Source: Bacteroidaceae bacterium (GTDB lineage Bacteria; Bacteroidota; Bacteroidia; Bacteroidales; Bacteroidaceae). From it: a stretch of DNA of 43,229 nt. Location of the stretch: positions 1-43,229 of the forward strand of contig JAFSKR010000058.1 of NCBI GenBank assembly GCA_017448825.1, read 5' to 3'. The stretch's first letter is position 1. Each line of letters opens with the position of its first letter. This document shows positions 7,925 through 41,637 of the stretch, piece by piece. A model generated the notes under the pieces. It worked only from the letters and a program-made list of their open reading frames with translations, had not been told where the DNA came from and searched no databases. The position numbers and the translations under genes were made by a program.

Positions 7925-8944
7925 TTATGGCAGGAAAATTTCATAAGTGTCCCTCACGTTTTGGAGATTGCTGGAATTTTGATTGCTTCGACCCTCTACA
8001 GCCTCTACAAATGTTTGGATTTCGGTAAAATAGCCTTGCGAGTAGATAGGGTTGTTGGCGAGTGTGGGCATGAAGTGGTTGCATTGATGGAGGTATTCAA
8101 GAGTCGTGTTCTTCGAGTGCAGTTTCTCTATGGGGATACCGAGAAAGGTAGATGGGTGGGGTGCGTAGATGAGTTTGTCCATCTGCGAAAGGTGGTATAT
8201 GCCTGAATGGGTACAGACTTTCAGTGTTTCTTCTGCGGTATTCCAGCTATAGGCAGTGGAAAGCTCGATTGTTCCAGTAATATAAGGATGTTGGAGAAAG
8301 AGGATAAAGGAATTCTTGGCAACTTGTCGGCTGGTGATCATTTTAGGCTTACCGAACAGATGGCATACAAGGTCGAGTGGATGGATGTAGAGGTCGAGTA
8401 GCGCATTTCCCTCAGGATAGGAACCTGTGAGATAATGTAAATCATAGCTGATGAGTCGTTCGTGACGTAGCCGTTTCCGTAGGAGTTGAATGGAAGGGGC
8501 ATAGTGTTTCTGGAGACCAACCATGACAACAGGGGAGGCGTAGAGGTGCTGTAAGTTGATGAGCACATCAAGTTCTGCCAATGTCTGACAGGGCGGTTTT
8601 TCGATGAAGAGTGACTTGCCACTTTGCAATACTCGCGAAGCAATGGAGAAGTGGGCAGAGGGTGAGGCTGAAACGAAGACTCCTTTGATGGCTTCATCGT
8701 TCAGAATGTCATCAAGCGAGGTCGTGGCCTTCACACCAGCAAATTTTCGTTCAATCAACTGAGCCTTCTTTTCCGATGTGACGCAGATGTATTTCAGCGG
8801 CACACCGAGGTAGTGGAGTACGGGATAGAGGTTAGTGAGCGAGTGCTGCCCCATGCCAACGAAGGCATATAAATATTGGTACGTTTGGTGCAGATACGTC
8901 GAGGTGCGCATCTGTTTATAACGGGTGATTAGTTCCTGTATCAT
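7925..8944 (-). CDS. Gfo/Idh/MocA-family oxidoreductase
   Basis: Using the ATG at 8944 gives 339 residues. The N-terminal Rossmann fold has GMGQHS (residues 30-35), a somewhat late and altered GxGxxG, and the diagnostic EKP (115-117, SLFIEKPP) that closes the nicotinamide site. The C-terminal alpha/beta domain has HPLDLVCHLFG, in which the histidine is usual for the family's active site. It is an NAD(P)-dependent dehydrogenase by family; substrate unknown. The start overlaps the stop of the radical SAM gene as ATGA (8941-8944), so the two are translationally coupled and probably act in one pathway. A longer frame to 9028 would overlap the radical SAM gene by 88 bases and is less likely. Confidence 0.85.
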   Translation of the reverse strand: MIQELITRYKQMRTSTYLHQTYQYLYAFVGMGQHSLTNLYPVLHYLGVPLKYICVTSEKKAQLIERKFAGVKATTSLDDILNDEAIKGVFVSASPSAHFSIASRVLQSGKSLFIEKPPCQTLAELDVLINLQHLYASPVVMVGLQKHYAPSIQLLRKRLRHERLISYDLHYLTGSYPEGNALLDLYIHPLDLVCHLFGKPKMITSRQVAKNSFILFLQHPYITGTIELSTAYSWNTAEETLKVCTHSGIYHLSQMDKLIYAPHPSTFLGIPIEKLHSKNTTLEYLHQCNHFMPTLANNPIYSQGYFTEIQTFVEAVEGRSNQNSSNLQNVRDTYEIFLP

Positions 8945-9999
8945 CGTATGTTGTTCAGATGTTTGTGGTAAGTCTGTTTGGGGTCTTCTGTCCACTGGTA
9001 TGTGCCGTAGAACTTTTCGATTATCCACTTAGGCAACAGCCGCTCGAAGTTGCGGACGAGGATAATATCATACTTTCGGTGAAAGTTAATCCAGCAGTTG
9101 TTGCATTGTCGTGAGTATTGGCATTGCATCTGGCATGATGCCGTACCGTTGAAGATTTCGTCAAGCGATTGCTGATGGATGTTCCCCAACACCACATCAA
9201 GGTTTTGGCAGAGTGGTACGTCGCCGTTGCTGTGTATGACAAGGTTACTCATGATGCTTTGGCAGCGCAGTTTCAGATGCCCGCTGCGCCATTGGTCGTA
9301 GAGTGCCACAAAGTCATAGTTTTCCTGTGTTTCATGGATACTTTGTGGAATCTGTCCGACAAAGTCCGTTGCTGTGAGCAATTCGCTCGTCGTGTCGAAG
9401 AATGCCATTGTTCCGTAAATACCTATCCGCACATCCACGCCATACCGCTTCGCTATGTCAATCACAAACGCCATGTCGTCGAATGTGTTCCATGGTGACA
9501 GACAGAACATCAAAGACAGTGGCACCTTATCTTTGAGAGTCTCCATCACCTCAATCACGCGATTGTAGCCATCGCGCCCTCGCATCCGTTGGTAAGTCTC
9601 GCGTCCTCCGTCAAGAGAGACATACAGATGATGGGGCTGATAGCGCTGAACGGCATTGATGACCTTTTGGGATGCCAAGCCGTTCGTCAGTAGTGTGTAG
9701 TTTGGATGATTCGTTTGGAACCATGCCATGATTTCGTCAGCTTGCGGATGCAGGATGAACTCACCACCTTCTAATCCTACGGTTGTCCGTCGCGTCACGC
9801 ATTGACTCTGCATCACTCGCTTGATGTCTTCGAGTGAAAGGTGTTCCACAGGCTTTTGCCAGATGTTGCAGTGCTTGCATCGAGACTGGCATGCCGTGGT
9901 TGAGTAAATCATCAGCTGCGACAGCCGCTTGTGTTGCGGTCTCGTCTGATTGTTCAAGTGGAGTAGCCCGTTGTAGGCGTAGTCGAAAATACTATACAT
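8941..9999 (-). CDS. radical SAM protein with C-terminal Cys cluster
   Basis: The 352-residue protein has the radical SAM motif CQSRCKHC (C37, C41, C44) that binds a 4Fe-4S cluster and S-adenosylmethionine, followed by GLEGGEF (the GGE-type SAM contact) and LYVSLDGG. The C-terminus contains further cysteines (LCQNLD; CQMQCQYSRQCNNCW) like a SPASM or twitch auxiliary cluster. That architecture occurs in MoaA/PqqE-like enzymes, including peptide maturases and sugar-modifying enzymes. No precursor peptide gene is visible nearby. The next gene, coupled by ATGA, is a Gfo/Idh/MocA dehydrogenase, so a radical step followed or preceded by an oxidoreduction on a small molecule, perhaps a sugar, is a reasonable guess. 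Confidence 0.85.
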   Translation of the reverse strand: MYSIFDYAYNGLLHLNNQTRPQHKRLSQLMIYSTTACQSRCKHCNIWQKPVEHLSLEDIKRVMQSQCVTRRTTVGLEGGEFILHPQADEIMAWFQTNHPNYTLLTNGLASQKVINAVQRYQPHHLYVSLDGGRETYQRMRGRDGYNRVIEVMETLKDKVPLSLMFCLSPWNTFDDMAFVIDIAKRYGVDVRIGIYGTMAFFDTTSELLTATDFVGQIPQSIHETQENYDFVALYDQWRSGHLKLRCQSIMSNLVIHSNGDVPLCQNLDVVLGNIHQQSLDEIFNGTASCQMQCQYSRQCNNCWINFHRKYDIILVRNFERLLPKWIIEKFYGTYQWTEDPKQTYHKHLNNIR

Positions 10000-10050
10000 A
10001 CAAAAATTCGTTGCAGTTTCCTACTTGTATAGTCTGGAACTGCAACGAAT
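10000..10050 (-). terminator. 13-bp hairpin between sigma-fusion and radical SAM genes
   Basis: ATTCGTTGCAGTT (10006-10018) pairs perfectly with AACTGCAACGAAT (10038-10050); on the minus strand the stem is followed by a TTTTTG tract. It should end transcription of the sigma-fusion gene. The radical SAM ATG (9999) lies only 6 bases after the stem, so the hairpin could also act as an attenuator or initiation block. Confidence 0.65.
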
Positions 10051-10127
10051 GACTGCATGAGAGAGGGGCTGTTTTCTCGGTTGGCTTTTACTTTCGAGAT
10101 ATTTCTTGAAGATTCCCCACGATGCGG

Positions 10128-11816
10128 CTACCATGTGAATCTGATGCCGAAAGGTAGGGAGAGGTCGAACGGATGTTCCGTACGATAGGTCTCGGTGTCG
10201 CCCGTGGTGGGGATGTAGTAACGAAGGCTGGGACCGATGTAGGCATTGACATGAGGCATTATCTGGTACTGGAATCCTACTTCTGCACCAACCGACCACT
10301 GCCACGGAGCACGTATGTTGCTATGTGATGTCGGGATGATGAGCGAGTCGGGATACTCTTGTTTGGCTAAGCCATTATATAAATATTGTGTAGTCAGTCG
10401 CCCTTTGATAGGGATGTCGAGTTGTACACCGCCAGAGGAGTAAAGCATCCAGTGCTTGCCACTTGCTATCCGATGGGTTAGGCTGAACGGGATGGAAATA
10501 TAGTGGAGCTTTTGTGTTCGGTGAATTAGCGTCATGTCATTACCAGCCTCGAAGGTGGACTTCATATAGGTATAGCCGATGCCTGTGGTCAGAGACCAAC
10601 GGTTACTCAACTGCTTGCTCAGGGAGAACTGGTATGTCTTGGGGCGCTCATGGTGTTTTGTCTCAGTGATGGGTTCCCATGGGTTATTGGCGTTAATGAG
10701 GGCAATGCGGTTCATGTTCGAGGCATCCACTGAGTCCATTCTGTCAGCGTTCTGTATGGTGTAGTTCATGTAGTCGCCCCAATTGTAGAGTTTCGTAGAG
10801 CGTGTGGCGGTACCAGAATAGGAAGGCATTGTCATGAAGTTGTCGGTGTGGGTCATGTCTGACGAGGGAGTGCCAGCGTAGGCCAGGGCAAGATGCCAAC
10901 CTTTCTTGCTGAAATTCTTGGTTGGAGTGTTGAATTTGAGGGCAGCAAGGTTGTCGTGTAGTATGGTCTGTATGTAATGTGCAGAGTCGGGCTGCTGTTG
11001 GTTTTGCAAAGTGTCAGCGATGGTTTGTTCATGTGCTGTCAGGTTTGACAGGGTGTCAAATCCGATGAAGTATGTTGCTTGTGCGAAGGTCGGTTTGAGC
11101 GTGTCAGTGGCAGTGATGGCGGTATGGTGTACGGGTCGGTCAACCATCTCTGGTTGCTGTGGCAGTTCTTTTGCTGATTTCATTGGTTCTTCCTTCTGCT
11201 TAGCCACGACGGGCTTGTTCCCTTTGACAACAGCATTTTCTTTCTTGAGCAGAAAGAACGTGATGGAACCGAGTAGCAGCAGGAGCACAGCCCAATACCT
11301 CTGTATCATCTTTCGCAGCATCTTTTTTGCTCGCGACAGTTGTGATGATGAGGAATGCGGTTCGATGCCCAACATCGTGGCAATCTCTTTGTGTGACATA
11401 CCTTCAAAGACGGACAATCGGAACACTTGCCCATATCCTTCTGGCAATCGTTCCACCATGCGCAGCACATCCTTCAGCGGCACCCCCCTTATGTCCATCC
11501 GTTCTGTATATGGCGATACCATTTCAGCTTCCTCCAATGGAACTGTCGCCATTCTCTCCATTCGTTCCTTGTACTTCGATGCCACGTTCCTTGTTATCGA
11601 CATCATCCATGACTCAACCTTCGAGTCATCTCTCAATTTGTCGAATGAGGTGAAAATAATTACGAAGGCATCATGAAGAATGTCATCGATAGCCTCTGCT
11701 TCGTTGATATACCGTCGGCATACGCCTCTCATCCTTTGGGCGTATGCCTTATACAGTTCACCGAGCGCATCCGCGTCCCCCTGCCTGCACCGTTCTATCA
11801 GCCGTTTCGTCTCCAT
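10128..11816 (-). CDS. ECF sigma factor fused through a TM helix to an outer-membrane beta-barrel
   Basis: One uninterrupted 562-codon frame. Residues 5-88 are sigma70 region 2 (EAIDDILHDAFVIIFTSFDK; SWMMSITRNVASKYKER), residues 109-172 region 4 with its helix-turn-helix (MSHKEIATMLGIEPHSSSSQ then LSRAKKMLRKM). Residues 174-190 (YWAVLLLLLGSITFFLL) are a single membrane helix. A Lys/Pro/Gln-rich linker (190-300) follows, then alternating amphipathic strands from about 310 to the terminal FGIRFTW, typical of an outer-membrane barrel with C-terminal aromatic residue. The predicted chain would run from cytoplasm through inner membrane and periplasm to the outer membrane. In Bacteroidota I know sigma factors and TM-barrel proteins as neighbouring genes; the fusion is unusual. 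Sequence across the junction is smooth, arguing against a sequencing artefact. Confidence 0.85.
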   Translation of the reverse strand: METKRLIERCRQGDADALGELYKAYAQRMRGVCRRYINEAEAIDDILHDAFVIIFTSFDKLRDDSKVESWMMSITRNVASKYKERMERMATVPLEEAEMVSPYTERMDIRGVPLKDVLRMVERLPEGYGQVFRLSVFEGMSHKEIATMLGIEPHSSSSQLSRAKKMLRKMIQRYWAVLLLLLGSITFFLLKKENAVVKGNKPVVAKQKEEPMKSAKELPQQPEMVDRPVHHTAITATDTLKPTFAQATYFIGFDTLSNLTAHEQTIADTLQNQQQPDSAHYIQTILHDNLAALKFNTPTKNFSKKGWHLALAYAGTPSSDMTHTDNFMTMPSYSGTATRSTKLYNWGDYMNYTIQNADRMDSVDASNMNRIALINANNPWEPITETKHHERPKTYQFSLSKQLSNRWSLTTGIGYTYMKSTFEAGNDMTLIHRTQKLHYISIPFSLTHRIASGKHWMLYSSGGVQLDIPIKGRLTTQYLYNGLAKQEYPDSLIIPTSHSNIRAPWQWSVGAEVGFQYQIMPHVNAYIGPSLRYYIPTTGDTETYRTEHPFDLSLPFGIRFTW

Positions 11817-11821
11817 TTGAG

Positions 11822-11865
11822 CATGATGTCTCTATCTATATAGTCCTGACATCATGAAAAGGACT
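11822..11865. promoter_or_regulatory. overlapping inverted repeats upstream of the sigma-fusion gene
   Basis: CATGATGTC (11822-11830) pairs with GACATCATG (11848-11856), and AGTCCT (11842-11847) with AGGACT (11860-11865). The two stems interlock, so as RNA they form a pseudoknot or exclude each other; as DNA they could be an operator. They end 5 bases before the ATG of the sigma fusion, fitting feedback control. Confidence 0.45.
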
Positions 11866-11929
11866 GCGCGGCCTCTCCCACTTTTTCACATAAGAAGTCT
11901 CATTTTCATAGGGGCTGCGTTTGCCTCTC

Positions 11930-12580
11930 TTATTCTTCGTCTTCTTGGGTGTCGTTTTTCATGTCGCGCTTTCGCCTGACGCTGACTTTCACGTTTTTGT
12001 TTTTCTGGCTGGCTTGGGCGGCTTTTCGTCTTTCTTTTTCTTCTTTGGTTTCGGTGGTTTTTGTTTTCTTCTCTTCTGCTTTCTCTGCTTTGGCGGCAGC
12101 GGCTTGAGCTTCTTTCTCAGCCTTAGCGGTAGCGGCTTGAGCTTCTTTCTCAGCCTTAGCGGCAGCGGCGGCTTTCCGTTTTTCGGATGTGGTGGTGGCT
12201 GCTCTTTGGTTGGCTGTGACGGTGGTGTGGGTGGTTTTCTTTTCCACTACGGTCTTGGCTTGGGGTTTGTCCATCTTCACGCTGATGGTCTTGGGGGTAT
12301 GGGTCTTGCCTTTGGCTTTGGCCTTGCGTGCTGCCAGTTTTTCTTTCTGTATCTGTCGGCGGGCTCGTTCCAGTTCTTTGTTTAGCCTGTTGACTTCGCG
12401 CTCGTCTTCTTTCAGTTGGGTTCGACTGGCACGCACTTTTTCTTTGGCTGTCTTGATGCGTGCTTTCAGTGCTTGCTGGATGGAGTCGTTGGCGGTGGTG
12501 GCGACAGCTCTCGATGGTGCTGCCGCCCAGGTTCCTAAGACCATCATCCAGAAGGCCAATGATATGGTGAGTTGTTTCAT
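11930..12580 (-). CDS. secreted Lys/Ala/Glu-rich coiled-coil protein
   Basis: The start at 12580 (MKQLTISLAFWMMVLGTWAA) gives a cleavable signal peptide; an upstream ATG at 12613 would bury it. The mature protein of about 190 residues is low-complexity: a coiled coil (KTAKEKVRASRTQLKEDERE), a Thr-rich linker, then tandem repeats of AEKEAQAATAK encoded by 33-base direct repeats (about 12101-12170), and a very basic to acidic tail (KNKNVKVSVRRKRDMKNDTQ). It should lie in the periplasm. TolA-like or cell-wall-bridging roles are conceivable; no family assigned. It is 113 bases upstream of the sigma-fusion gene on the same strand and may act with it. Confidence 0.7.
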   Translation of the reverse strand: MKQLTISLAFWMMVLGTWAAAPSRAVATTANDSIQQALKARIKTAKEKVRASRTQLKEDEREVNRLNKELERARRQIQKEKLAARKAKAKGKTHTPKTISVKMDKPQAKTVVEKKTTHTTVTANQRAATTTSEKRKAAAAAKAEKEAQAATAKAEKEAQAAAAKAEKAEEKKTKTTETKEEKERRKAAQASQKNKNVKVSVRRKRDMKNDTQEDEE

Positions 12581-12604
12581 GTGGGATATGATTATTTCAT
12601 TCAG

Positions 12605-12690
12605 GTTTCGCAAGTTGTATATCTTTGAAGTTAACGAAGTTAGCGAAGTTATCGGTTCTTTGCGAGCAAAGAACCGATAACTTCAGAATG
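12605..12690. repeat. palindromic intergenic repeat, copy 1
   Basis: Begins TTCGCAAGTTGTATATCTTT, then three near-repeats of GAAGTTANC, then a perfect hairpin (12645-12684) with 19-base arms GAAGTTATCGGTTCTTTGC and a 2-base loop. Near-identical copies lie at 22306-22391 and, with a loop insertion, 40612-40799. It lies between the GH51 gene and the coiled-coil gene and may act as a terminator. Confidence 0.8.
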
Positions 12691-12694
12691 TTGT

Positions 12695-15166
12695 TTATTT
12701 CAATTGTGCCTTGATGATGCTGAGTGAATAGGATGGAACATCGAAGGTGAGCTGTGAACCTCCATTCTGCACATTGACGGTGGCGGGACGTGGCACCACT
12801 TTTGTTGGATTGTTCATCGTATTTTCGTCTTCGCCACTTTCCGAGGTCATGCGTTCGAGGGAGGCTGAGGCGCACTGGGCGTTCTTCAGGTCGATGGTGC
12901 CAGTGGTGGGGCCATAGCCTGTGTTGACCACCTTGATGTACATCGTCTTGGTGGCATCGTCGATGGTGGTGGAGGCATAGACACCCTTCATCATGCTGTG
13001 TTGCAGGGCACCAGCCAATTCCTTCTTTCCATCAATGTAGGTCGTGATGCTGTCGCCGTCCACATCCACTTGGAGGTCATACCAACGGTCATCCTCCACC
13101 TTGAACTGGGTGCCCGGTGTGATGGTCACACGTCCACCGCCATTGCCTTGCTCGATGTTGTTCTGGGAGTTGCTCCAACCACCGACGTTGAACCAGTTGT
13201 AGTTGTCGGGGTTTTTATAGCCGAACACTATCAGGAACCCCTCGTTGCCGCGGCGTTTCTGTGCTTTGGCCTTGATGGTGTATTTCTTGTCAGTGTGGGT
13301 GTCGGGGCAGATGAACATGGTGGCCTCGTCGTTGGAGGTCTGGGTCACTTCGCTGCCATTGACATGCCATCTCCCCTTCACAGTTTCCCATTCCGACAGG
13401 TCGGACAGCTCCAGTTTCTTGCCATCCACGATGTATTCCACGTCTTTGTAGGTGGCGGTTGTTGCCCAGGTGCCAAGACCGATGCAGACAGGTGTTTCTT
13501 TGCTCTTTGTGGCAGGTTTCTCGGGCAGGTTGGCGGTCCATGTGGTCTTCACCACCTGTGTGCCGATGTTGTTTGGGAAGAGTTTCTGCACGTAGTAAGA
13601 GGGGGTACACATCACCTTGGCACTGTTGAAGCGTATCATGTCGGGCTTCCAGGCGGCGTTGTTTTCGTTGACGAAGATGGGGGCGTAGGAGTTCATCACG
13701 ACGACGTCGGAGTTGTTTTCCATGCCCATCATGTAGACGGCTTCGCCGAGGGCGGCGTTGAGGTTGCCGATGGTGCCGAACATACTGGTCACGGCATATT
13801 CGCCTGTGTATATCTTGTAGGTGTCTCGTGCGTAGGAGTCGTATTTGTGGAAGCGGTCGGCAAACCACTTGGGGTTGCGGTAGTAGTGCTCGTCCACGAT
13901 GTCCACGGGGTAGGAGTTGCGCCACGAGGGATTGTCGGTTCCCCACGACTCAACGTTTCCGATGGCCTTGATGTTGGGGTATTTGGCCTTGATGGCATCG
14001 TAGAACATCTTGTAGCGTTCGGGATACTGGATGGATTGGTCGCGGTTGGTGTCCATGAAGAAGTTGTAGTTTTCGTTGCCAATCTCCAAATACTCGATGT
14101 TGAAGGGTGCGGGGTGGCCGTTCTTGGCACGGAGGGCACCGTATTTTGTAGATGTGTCGCCATTGGCATACTCCAGTGCATCCATGCATTCCTTCAACCA
14201 CGTGTCTTTCAGTGAGTCAAGTGGAGTGTAGCCTCCATGCCAGATGCCTACGTTCACCACATAGAGAGGCTTGGCACCAATGTCCTCAGCCAATTGCAGG
14301 AACTCGTGGAAGCCTATTCCATCTGTAGTATAGTAGCCCCAGTTGGCGTTCATGTGGCCTGGGCGTTCTTCGATGGGACCGATGGTGCGTTCCCAACGGA
14401 AGGCGTTTTCGGGCTTGATGTTGCCCTCGACGAAGCAGCCGCCGGGGAAGCGCATGAATTGGGGCTTCATGTCGGCAAGGAGTTGTGCGAGGTCAGGACG
14501 CATGCCGTGGTTTTTGTAGGTGGGGGGCATGAGGCTGACCATGTCGAGTTGGAATACGCCAGGAGCATCAGCCAACAGATAGAAAGACGCTTGTGGGTGG
14601 TCTTCTGTGGCGGTGATGGTGGTGGTATATTTCTGCCATTTGGGCGTGAGCTTGACGGGAATGGAGGTCATGCCCAGGTTGCCGAAGTTCACGGTGTGGG
14701 GACGCAGGAGGGCTGTCAGTGTGCCTTTGTACTTTTTGTCGCTCTTTGCCCAGAAGGTTAGTGTGTAGGTGCGTCCCTTCACGGCATTGATGCCCCAGTA
14801 CCCCTCGTTGCTGACTCCTGCAAGGTGTTGTGCGTCGGCTCGTGTGACGATGACACGAAGGGATTTGCCTTGTGCGGCATTCATGGGGTCTTCGCTTGTG
14901 AGTTCGATGGTTGCTTTGCTGCCTTCTTCGGAATAGGCTTGCCAGTTGGCGGGTTGTTGCTTGTCGTTCTCGAACGAGCGGTTCTGTATGAGTTCGGCAT
15001 AGAGGCCACCGTCGGCGGCATGGTTGATGTCTTCGAAGAAGATGCCATAGTGGGTGGGCGAAATCTTGGGGCCTCGTTGGTTGGTGTCAATGCTAATTTG
15101 CACTTGTGCTTGGGTGGTCAGCGCACCAGTCAGGAGGGCTGCTGTCAGAAAGAATTTGATGTTCAT
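12695..15166 (-). CDS. GH51 alpha-L-arabinofuranosidase (secreted)
   Basis: The start at 15166 (MNIKFFLTAALLTGALTTQA) gives a signal peptide; the longer frame to 15316 has a Ser/Thr/Lys-rich extension overlapping murF and is rejected. Of 823 residues, about 80-215 form a CBM4/9-like carbohydrate-binding domain, followed by the GH51 TIM barrel with acid/base E365 (EIGNEN) and nucleophile E456 (YTGEYAVT). A laminin-G/DUF1080-like beta-sandwich (about 590-740) is inserted before the C-terminal beta domain. It cleaves arabinose side chains from arabinoxylan or arabinan outside the cytoplasm. It follows murF by 28 bases, an odd neighbour for a housekeeping gene; co-transcription is possible. Confidence 0.92.
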   Translation of the reverse strand: MNIKFFLTAALLTGALTTQAQVQISIDTNQRGPKISPTHYGIFFEDINHAADGGLYAELIQNRSFENDKQQPANWQAYSEEGSKATIELTSEDPMNAAQGKSLRVIVTRADAQHLAGVSNEGYWGINAVKGRTYTLTFWAKSDKKYKGTLTALLRPHTVNFGNLGMTSIPVKLTPKWQKYTTTITATEDHPQASFYLLADAPGVFQLDMVSLMPPTYKNHGMRPDLAQLLADMKPQFMRFPGGCFVEGNIKPENAFRWERTIGPIEERPGHMNANWGYYTTDGIGFHEFLQLAEDIGAKPLYVVNVGIWHGGYTPLDSLKDTWLKECMDALEYANGDTSTKYGALRAKNGHPAPFNIEYLEIGNENYNFFMDTNRDQSIQYPERYKMFYDAIKAKYPNIKAIGNVESWGTDNPSWRNSYPVDIVDEHYYRNPKWFADRFHKYDSYARDTYKIYTGEYAVTSMFGTIGNLNAALGEAVYMMGMENNSDVVVMNSYAPIFVNENNAAWKPDMIRFNSAKVMCTPSYYVQKLFPNNIGTQVVKTTWTANLPEKPATKSKETPVCIGLGTWATTATYKDVEYIVDGKKLELSDLSEWETVKGRWHVNGSEVTQTSNDEATMFICPDTHTDKKYTIKAKAQKRRGNEGFLIVFGYKNPDNYNWFNVGGWSNSQNNIEQGNGGGRVTITPGTQFKVEDDRWYDLQVDVDGDSITTYIDGKKELAGALQHSMMKGVYASTTIDDATKTMYIKVVNTGYGPTTGTIDLKNAQCASASLERMTSESGEDENTMNNPTKVVPRPATVNVQNGGSQLTFDVPSYSLSIIKAQLK

Positions 15167-15194
15167 GTTGTTAGTTAGGTTATAGGGTTTGTCT

Positions 15195-16484
15195 TTAGAG
15201 TAATTCGACGGTTTGTACGAGCTTGTTGCTGTTGGAACCTTTGATGAGGATGAGGTAACCTGTGGGTTTGTCGGCGGTGAGGGCTTTCTTGACTTCTTCG
15301 ACATTGGCGAACACATCCCACTCGGCGGGATGGTCTGTCTGGGCGAAATTGCTGCCCACCAGCCACACTTTTTCTATGTTGCTGTTTTTCAGTTGCTCGA
15401 CGACTTTCTGATGCTCTTCTTCGCTGACATCGCCCAGTTCGCCCATCTGTCCGAGGATGCACATCTTGTGTTCTGCGTTTATCTGTCGGAAATTGTCAAG
15501 GGCTGCTTTCATGCTGGTGGGATTGGCGTTGTAGGCATCCACCACGAGGCGGTTGTCGGGTGTGATGGTCAGTTGGCTGCGGTTGTTCGAGGGGGTGTAT
15601 TCTTCCAGTGCAGCGCAGATGTCGGCATCTGGAACGGCAAAGTGTCTGCCGATGCAAGCGGCGGCAAGGGCGTTGTCGAGGTTGTAGGAACCGATGAGTC
15701 GGGTCTGTACAAGTCCTCCTTCCCATTCAAATTTCAGGAATGGGTTGCACGCTATGAACTTGCCTTTCACCAGCAGTCCCTCGGCTTCTTGTTGACCGTA
15801 CTTGACAAGGTGAAGCCCTGAACTGATGCGCAGCAAATGGGGATTGTCGTTGTTGATGAATGCGGTGCCTTGAATCTCTCGAAGGAAGTCGTACAGCTCG
15901 CCTTTGGTGCGGATGACTCCCTCGAAGGAGCCGAAGCCCAGCAGGTGTGCCTTGCCCACATTGGTGATGATGCCATAGTCGGGCAGGACGATGTTCACCA
16001 GGGTCTTGATTTCGCCTGGGTGGTTGGCTCCCATTTCGATGACTGCCACTTGATGCTCTTTGGTCAGTTGCAGCAGGGTCTTGGGCACTCCGATGTGGTT
16101 GTTGAAGTTGCCTTGTGTGTAGAGCACGTTATACTTTTTCTTCAGCACGGTGGCAATGAGTTCCTTCGTCGTGGTCTTTCCATTCGTGCCCGTGATGCCG
16201 ATGATGGTGGTGCCGAGGTGCACACGGTGGTATTTGGCCAGTTGCTGTAGGGTGGTCAAGACGTCTTCGACCAGAATCAATTGTTTGTTGCCTTCTTCTG
16301 CATATTCCTTTTCGTCGATGATGGCGTATGCAGCCCCTTTCTCCAGCGCAGCCTTTGCATAGGCATTGCCGTCAAAGGTCTCACCTTTCAAGGCAAAAAA
16401 TAGCGAGCCTTCTGGCACATCGCGGCTATCGGTGGTGATGGTGGGGTGCTGCAGGAAGAGTTCGTATAAGTCTTTCATTTCCAT
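15195..16484 (-). CDS. murF: UDP-N-acetylmuramoyl-tripeptide--D-alanyl-D-alanine ligase
   Basis: 429 residues with the Mur ligase domains in order: N-terminal substrate domain (TTDSRDVPEGSLFFALKGE), central ATPase with P-loop GITGTNGKTTTK (96-107), the EMGANHPGEI stretch and the C-terminal domain (VVDAYNANPTSMKAALDNF), where NANP is typical of MurF. It adds D-Ala-D-Ala to the muropeptide precursor in the cytoplasm, the last soluble step of peptidoglycan precursor synthesis. The ATG at 16484 overlaps the stop of cdaA as TAATG, implying translational coupling; MKDLYEL at 16478 is a possible alternative start. It lies outside the usual mur/fts cluster. Confidence 0.95.
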   Translation of the reverse strand: MEMKDLYELFLQHPTITTDSRDVPEGSLFFALKGETFDGNAYAKAALEKGAAYAIIDEKEYAEEGNKQLILVEDVLTTLQQLAKYHRVHLGTTIIGITGTNGKTTTKELIATVLKKKYNVLYTQGNFNNHIGVPKTLLQLTKEHQVAVIEMGANHPGEIKTLVNIVLPDYGIITNVGKAHLLGFGSFEGVIRTKGELYDFLREIQGTAFINNDNPHLLRISSGLHLVKYGQQEAEGLLVKGKFIACNPFLKFEWEGGLVQTRLIGSYNLDNALAAACIGRHFAVPDADICAALEEYTPSNNRSQLTITPDNRLVVDAYNANPTSMKAALDNFRQINAEHKMCILGQMGELGDVSEEEHQKVVEQLKNSNIEKVWLVGSNFAQTDHPAEWDVFANVEEVKKALTADKPTGYLILIKGSNSNKLVQTVELL

Positions 16485-41622: not shown

Positions 41623-41637
41623 CAGTATATACTGCAG

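Follow-up and report, generated by a model that had tools for sequence, protein, structure and literature searches.

A sigma factor fused to an outer-membrane barrel in Prevotella-type bacteria, and the case for a one-protein cell-surface signalling switch

Extracytoplasmic function (ECF) sigma factors joined to membrane segments are already known. Among the closest described cases is IutY of Pseudomonas putida (group ECF243), a sigma/anti-sigma fusion whose sigma domain is reportedly freed by Prc and RseP. According to another paper (PMC7406223), class I anti-sigma domains are found near just 6% of Bacteroidetes ECFs, and thus the control of these factors is a question on which further fusions bear. 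Here we describe such a fusion, encoded in 43,229 nucleotides (nt) of contig JAFSKR010000058.1 from a Bacteroidaceae bacterium (assembly GCA_017448825.1), a stretch that we call the window. Its new element is an outer-membrane beta-barrel in the same chain as the sigma factor. The literature searched, which did not extend to the paper on ECF reclassification and one on ECF evolution, yielded no sigma factor with a covalent link to an outer-membrane barrel, and the word ‘barrel’ does not occur in the available portion of a review of non-canonical ECF factors (PMC8999054). We believe that the gene is best explained as an autoregulated, local, one-protein cell-surface signalling switch, and give this whole explanation a probability of roughly 0.6.

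The coordinates of the gene, its parts and its neighbourhood are collected in Table 1. The frame runs on the minus strand from an ATG at 11816 to a TAG stop at 10130-10128, and translating 10128-11816 on the plus strand meets 18 stops. An earlier note on this DNA, which named no strand, had described regions 2 and 4 of an ECF sigma factor, one helix, a linker of about 110 residues and a Trp-ended barrel in a single frame, and Pfam searches and hydropathy bear this description out. Both sigma regions exceed their curated Pfam cut-offs, as does the barrel (OMP_b-brl_2, residues 396-535, 33.6 bits against a cut-off of 27). The most hydrophobic 19-mer of the protein, residues 171-189, starts a few residues past region 4 and is separated by 118 residues from the first barrel Trp (307), and the final residue is also Trp. 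For comparison across relatives, we use an alignment of 53 fused proteins, comprising the window and 52 of the 80 loci described below, hand-chosen as intact and with near-copies removed. Every member matches Sigma70_r2, Sigma70_r4_2 and OMP_b-brl_2 (E ≤ 0.001), carries invariant HSSSSQL and RAK sequences and ends in Trp, and the best hydrophobic window adjoins region 4 in 52 of the 53. A profile built from the fused proteins matches the SigW, sigma-H and sigma-E chains, with these matches confined to residues 1-172. The predicted barrel has about eight strands, counted by eye on the alignment. Residues 190-395 match no Pfam family at E ≤ 1, a FecR-like periplasmic domain included, in a search whose HMMER filters drop most weak matches. 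Nine more sigma-like matches occur in the window's genome, in frames of 169-234 amino acids that are too short for this fusion.

Table 1. Features of the fused gene and its neighbourhood, in window coordinates
Feature	Position	Strand	Remarks
Fused ECF sigma - membrane helix - linker - outer-membrane barrel gene	10128..11816	-	562 amino acids plus TAG stop
Sigma-70 region 2, residues 21-83	11568..11756	-	Pfam PF04542 (Sigma70_r2)
Sigma-70 region 4, residues 116-167, with HSSSSQLxRAK recognition helix	11316..11471	-	Pfam PF08281 (Sigma70_r4_2)
Single membrane helix, about residues 171-192, immediately C-terminal to region 4	11241..11306	-	Hydropathy
Predicted periplasmic linker, about residues 193-303	10908..11240	-	dN/dS above that of the other three segments
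Outer-membrane beta-barrel domain, about residues 304-562, ending in Trp and with NWxDY in a long first loop	10131..10907	-	Pfam PF13568
Putative own promoter: -35 CGCAGTC, 16-nt spacer, -10 GACTATA	11839..11869	-	Begins 53 nt before the ATG
Second promoter copy: TGCAGTC, 16 nt, GACTATA	10028..10058	-	Intergenic, 59 nt ahead of the ATG of the gene that follows the fused one
Radical SAM / SPASM gene, predicted target	8941..9999	-	Pfam PF04055, PF13186; neighbour in 45/80 loci
GFO_IDH_MocA oxidoreductase gene	7925..8944	-	Pfam PF01408; neighbour in 39/80 loci

The fusion is carried by many Prevotella-type bacteria. A scan with one genome per species found at least 523 stretches that encode a relative, and the best 80 of these were analysed. 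They are titled Prevotella, Hoylesella, Segatella or unnamed Prevotellaceae, Bacteroidaceae and Bacteroidales, and include isolates of P. oulorum, P. denticola, P. micans, P. multiformis, P. amnii, P. conceptionensis, P. illustrans, H. timonensis and S. baroniae. The conserved fusions for which the earlier note had proposed a search are indeed there, since 74 of these 80 loci hold one uninterrupted frame over the query (beginning at residue 1, or at residue 5 or 7). A stop interrupts the frame at one locus (L039), and contig ends truncate the other five (L083, L085, L089, L093 and L095). At the family level, 97 of 399 sampled genomes match at E ≤ 1e-60, spanning 16 of 30 genera; by a manual count, the match is full-length in 78 of these, of which 76 lack a stop, and no more than partial in the remaining 19. 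Two one-contig genomes (G073 and G210) each carry a full-length fusion. Within the window's genus, 11 of 45 genomes match at E ≤ 1e-40, with the copies of G020 and G028 interrupted. In the order sample, 20 of 295 genomes pass E ≤ 1e-40, mostly with a sigma factor or a barrel alone, and G628 is the only genome outside the family with the fusion (one copy was read and a second judged by frame length). The phylum sample (345 genomes, E ≤ 1e-45) held only the window's own gene and a copy in G070 that is split in the linker, with no further intact fusion, at order and phylum cut-offs that would miss diverged fusions.

Interrupted copies exist (L039, the pairs L013/L122 and L014/L123, and G212 and G215), and those in the named loci could be taken to favour the view that an assembly or sequencing artefact joins two genes. 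However, the same intact fusion recurs in many separate assemblies, in isolates and in one-contig genomes. Mis-assembly is ruled out by this recurrence, and we assign a negligible chance to an artefact of any kind. Likewise, the findings that the earlier note expected of a spurious fusion, namely orthologues always split into two genes or a frameshift at this point, did not materialise, as close relatives are fused. Ratios of nonsynonymous to synonymous substitution rates (dN/dS; Nei-Gojobori, pooled over 154 pairs that share sequences) are 0.14 in the sigma domain and 0.15 in the helix, compared with 0.23 in the barrel and 0.34 in the linker. Every segment is therefore under purifying selection.

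More distant relatives encode the same parts in two genes, which agrees with the proposal in the earlier note that the fusion collapses a pair of sigma factor and transmembrane (TM)-barrel genes. Families other than the window's have this layout, and so do some genomes of its genus (L018, L019 and L031). A sigma factor of about 175-205 amino acids is followed by a separate protein, in which some 50 cytoplasmic residues lead into a helix and then a linker, with a barrel or a different domain behind it. All 21 barrel-type partners examined have 40-60 residues ahead of the helix, 19 of them with a Trp at residues 16-50. The two genes of a pair overlap in 12 of the 21 cases, seven times by exactly 4 nt. 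The fusion is without this cytoplasmic segment: only a few residues lie between region 4 and the helix in 52 of the 53 aligned members, and the motif of that segment is present in none. The barrels of the two forms are homologous (hhalign probability 100, E 2.5e-52, 24 fused against 9 two-gene sequences).

Trees were built from 30 fused members (the window, 26 of the 80 loci, L015, L021 and L148) and 21 two-gene members. In these trees, 29 of the 30 fused members form one clade, with branch support by the Shimodaira-Hasegawa-like approximate likelihood ratio test (SH-aLRT) of 100 for the sigma domain and 97 for the barrel. The remaining member, L021 (from G034, in the window's genus), is a divergent fusion with support of 43 by sigma and a p value of 0.567 in the approximately unbiased test (p-AU) for grouping with the others by barrel, and may represent a second, independent fusion event. 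L148 comes from another family and sits within the fused clade, which suggests horizontal transfer. Furthermore, in four of 13 pairs whose sigma halves are at least 90% identical, the barrels are just 37-38% identical, and the sensor ends therefore seem to be exchanged between close sigma relatives. These four pairs are L040/L050, L040/L053, L041/L049 and L041/L053, with sigma halves 90-95% identical. At L018 (G030), the sigma and barrel genes lie in one frame and are parted by one stop codon and three bases. This arrangement could picture the state before fusion, although the cytoplasmic domain is still present.

A promoter-like element stands upstream of the fused gene and recurs just beyond it. 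In the window and 79 of the loci (L085 is truncated), the -35-like core of the TGCAGTC type is present as GCAGT in all 80 sequences and as GCAGTC in 77. The core lies 51-54 nt from the aligned start in 65 of the 80. At 11 isolate-type loci, the real distance is shorter than the listed 71-78 nt because the alignment starts at residue 7, and longer distances (65-137 nt) are found at L106, L111, L112 and L117. The core of L111 and L117 is 137 nt away from an alignment that begins at residue 5, apparently with a small additional frame in between. The window and its nearer relatives also have a second, -10-like block, which reads GACTATA after a spacer of 16 nt in both copies of the window; such a spacing is the usual one for ECF promoters. 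Among 74 loci with a complete gene and at least 160 nt after it, 64 have a second core copy within 150 nt past the stop, against 0.31 expected from the minus-strand rate (21 minus-strand core matches in 762 kb, compared with 187 on the plus strand). The second copy is missing at L045, L056, L061, L065, L072, L080, L103, L107, L112 and L113, with a near-copy visible at L045, L056, L065, L080 and L112. A looser form of the pattern also matches the window's plus strand once, at 41632.

The genes behind this second copy differ by lineage. A copy of the promoter precedes 39 of 45 lipoprotein genes and 38 of 45 SPASM genes, and one sub-clade has a methyltransferase gene in place of either. None of the 39 GFO_IDH_MocA genes that follow a SPASM gene has its own copy. 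In the window, the ATG of the oxidoreductase gene overlaps the SPASM stop by 4 nt (the ATG at 8944 is the chosen start, and the frame is also open from a GTG at 9028), and therefore these two genes probably share a transcript. None of the 25 NCBIfam models examined, of 35 listed, reaches its cut-off with the SPASM protein. The lipoproteins have a lipobox in 42 of 45 cases and at least two acidic residues after the Cys in 41, a feature that we take to resemble the surface-export signal of Bacteroidota lipoproteins. The lipoprotein encoded at L040:2150-2719 (about 185 amino acids, of the type in 45 loci) has no Pfam or NCBIfam match. No separate conserved anti-sigma gene was seen next door, and among upstream frames of at least 100 amino acids, no protein family was shared by more than 10 of the 80 loci. 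Just upstream of the fused gene in the window, on the same strand, 11930-12613 encodes a Lys/Ala-rich protein with a signal-like start and no Pfam match. An enzyme of the alpha-L-arabinofuranosidase type, which includes a carbohydrate-binding domain, is encoded at 12695-15316 of the window.

The element is probably read by the fused sigma factor itself, as suggested by the way in which one residue of the recognition helix tracks the -35 letters among relatives (mutual information 0.684, n = 19, a value reached in 0 of 10000 shuffles). Where a site is present, Lys is paired with TGCAAC (7 of 7 loci), Arg with TGCAGC (8 of 10) and Ser with TGCAGT (2 of 2, L148 and L151, besides the fused clade); there is no site at 8 of 15 Lys-type, 3 of 13 Arg-type and 2 of 4 Ser-type loci. 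This residue of region 4 is thus a possible recognition code for the -35 element in this Bacteroidota sigma family. The observation covers 11316-11471 of the window and loci L002-L008, L016-L037 and L148-L166. If the element is indeed read by this sigma factor, then the consequence would be positive feedback on its own gene together with control of the neighbours.

Given these observations, we propose the following mechanism. With no signal sequence ahead of it, the N-terminal ECF sigma domain would remain in the cytoplasm, held by a single membrane helix that serves as a signal anchor, and the rest of the chain would be exported. The linker, at 100 residues or more, should be long enough to cross the periplasm, and the barrel at the far end of the chain would sit in the outer membrane and sense something there or outside the cell. 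The tether alone might keep the sigma domain inactive, and so stand in for the presumed anti-sigma domain that the two-gene relatives have in the cytoplasm. Once the barrel receives a signal, the linker would be exposed, whereupon a periplasmic protease followed by an RseP-type intramembrane protease would cut the chain and free the sigma domain. The freed domain would read TGCAGTC -35 promoters, namely its own and that of the genes just downstream: depending on the lineage, a lipoprotein gene, a radical SAM/SPASM gene with its oxidoreductase, or a methyltransferase gene. Inactivity through tethering and release by cutting are proposed because of the architecture and the precedent of IutY. The loss of the partner's cytoplasmic domain, the shared promoter and the downstream genes go beyond what the earlier note had contemplated. 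For the broader idea of envelope-spanning single proteins in which a tether is the sole anti-sigma device, barrels are swappable sensors on a constant sigma factor, and a small private regulon lies beside the gene, the odds seem to us about even.

Several observations weigh against this switch, and some of them lend weight to other explanations. A profile of the barrel finds no confident match among solved structures, the best being weak (E 0.33). The -10 block is far less conserved than the -35 core and varies by lineage. Genes for RseP-type (PF02163) and Prc-type (PF03572) proteases are present in the window's genome, but all 14 control genomes have PF02163 and 10 of these 14 have PF03572, and therefore their presence is not specific. 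Finally, 51 of the 53 aligned members have a Met near the start of the helix, and therefore a second start that gives a separate barrel is possible. In that case, one frame would yield two products, with a TM-barrel protein arising separately from an internal start just before the helix, and with the sigma half either released or made alone, and the overlaps within the two-gene pairs would fit such an origin. We consider this unlikely. The best loci carry neither stop nor frameshift between the halves (74 of 80), whereas the two-gene relatives keep one, and the cytoplasmic domain of a separate partner is gone from the fusion. Furthermore, conservation of the Met may simply reflect its position beside the conserved RAK of region 4.

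Two further sets of points against the switch concern the reading of the element. The table behind the recognition code was made by alignment with relatedness uncontrolled, and some of its rows are close relatives (L017 and L157), so that the correlation should be seen as support rather than proof; also, 16 loci with Ala or other helices were left out, of which five have a site (two TGCAGC, two TGCAGT and one TGCAAC). Genome-wide counts, by which the element is rare, form the second set. In 35 hand-chosen fusion-bearing genomes, the 12-mer RTGCAGTCTTTT has 92 sites against 24 for its reversed form. Of these sites, 44, spread over 28 genomes, are no more than 150 nt from a fused gene. The other 48 lie away from it, and in 35 control genomes without a fusion match at the genus or family cut-off (E ≤ 1e-40 and E ≤ 1e-60) the exact 12-mer is still twice as common as its reversed form (36 versus 18). 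Given the sites in fusion-free genomes and the 48 distant sites, a match of letters alone is weak. No clear sign of a wide regulon emerges from the 12-mer counts in these two sets of 35 genomes. In the window's genome, the 10-mer GCAGTCYTTT is not enriched (14 sites versus 16 reversed), although this form misses the promoter copy before the SPASM gene, and the full element is present at just one of the 14 sites, which is that of the fused gene. At L173, a GCAGTCYTTT site that looks intergenic stands 130 nt before the gene of a 460-amino-acid protein, without GACTATA.

The lack of enrichment of the 10-mer and the sites in fusion-free genomes would be expected if some other regulator reads the element and the fused sigma factor is degenerate or structural. 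We regard this as highly improbable, given that the sigma domain has a dN/dS of 0.14 and an invariant recognition helix, and that the -35 letters change with this helix across relatives. The nature of the signal offers a different alternative, in which the barrel senses its own assembly. Failed insertion would expose the C-terminal Trp end, a protease would free the sigma domain, and the system would report assembly stress. The Trp that ends every aligned member is compatible with this idea, and so is the precedent of Escherichia coli DegS, which is reported in a review to be activated by C-terminal peptides of unassembled outer-membrane proteins, upstream of RpoE. However, the predicted targets are a few local genes and not assembly factors or chaperones, and the exchange of barrels between close sigma relatives is better suited to ligand sensing. 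An assembly-stress sensor thus appears distinctly doubtful to us.

If the proposed switch is real, then it provides a very short path from the outer membrane to a promoter, with receptor, transducer, inhibitor and transcription factor combined in one chain. Signalling across two membranes would become testable with one gene and one promoter, and Prevotella would gain a predicted inducible promoter. The fusion would also exemplify how a two-gene circuit could lose the cytoplasmic domain of one partner and yet stay under selection.

It is useful to return to the described systems with these features in mind. Like IutY, the fusion has a cytoplasmic ECF sigma factor, one helix and an extracytoplasmic part in one polypeptide, without a separate anti-sigma protein; unlike in IutY, a predicted outer-membrane barrel belongs to the chain. 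Groups ECF48, ECF52 and ECF53 of Actinobacteria (e.g. SCO4117) also have sigma factors fused via membrane helices to further domains, and proteolytic release has been proposed for them. However, these proteins carry zinc-finger or carbohydrate-binding domains and no barrel, and we claim no kinship beyond the sigma part. The FecI-FecR-FecA system resembles the proposed switch in that an outer-membrane barrel signals to a cytoplasmic ECF sigma factor, but it requires three proteins and a large transport receptor where the fusion has one protein and a small barrel. A further counterpart is the Bacteroidota pair of sigma factor and TM-barrel protein. This pair is made by two genes, and its barrel protein owns a cytoplasmic domain of 40-60 residues, yet it shares with the fusion a related sigma factor, a homologous barrel, the same order of parts and a related -35 element.
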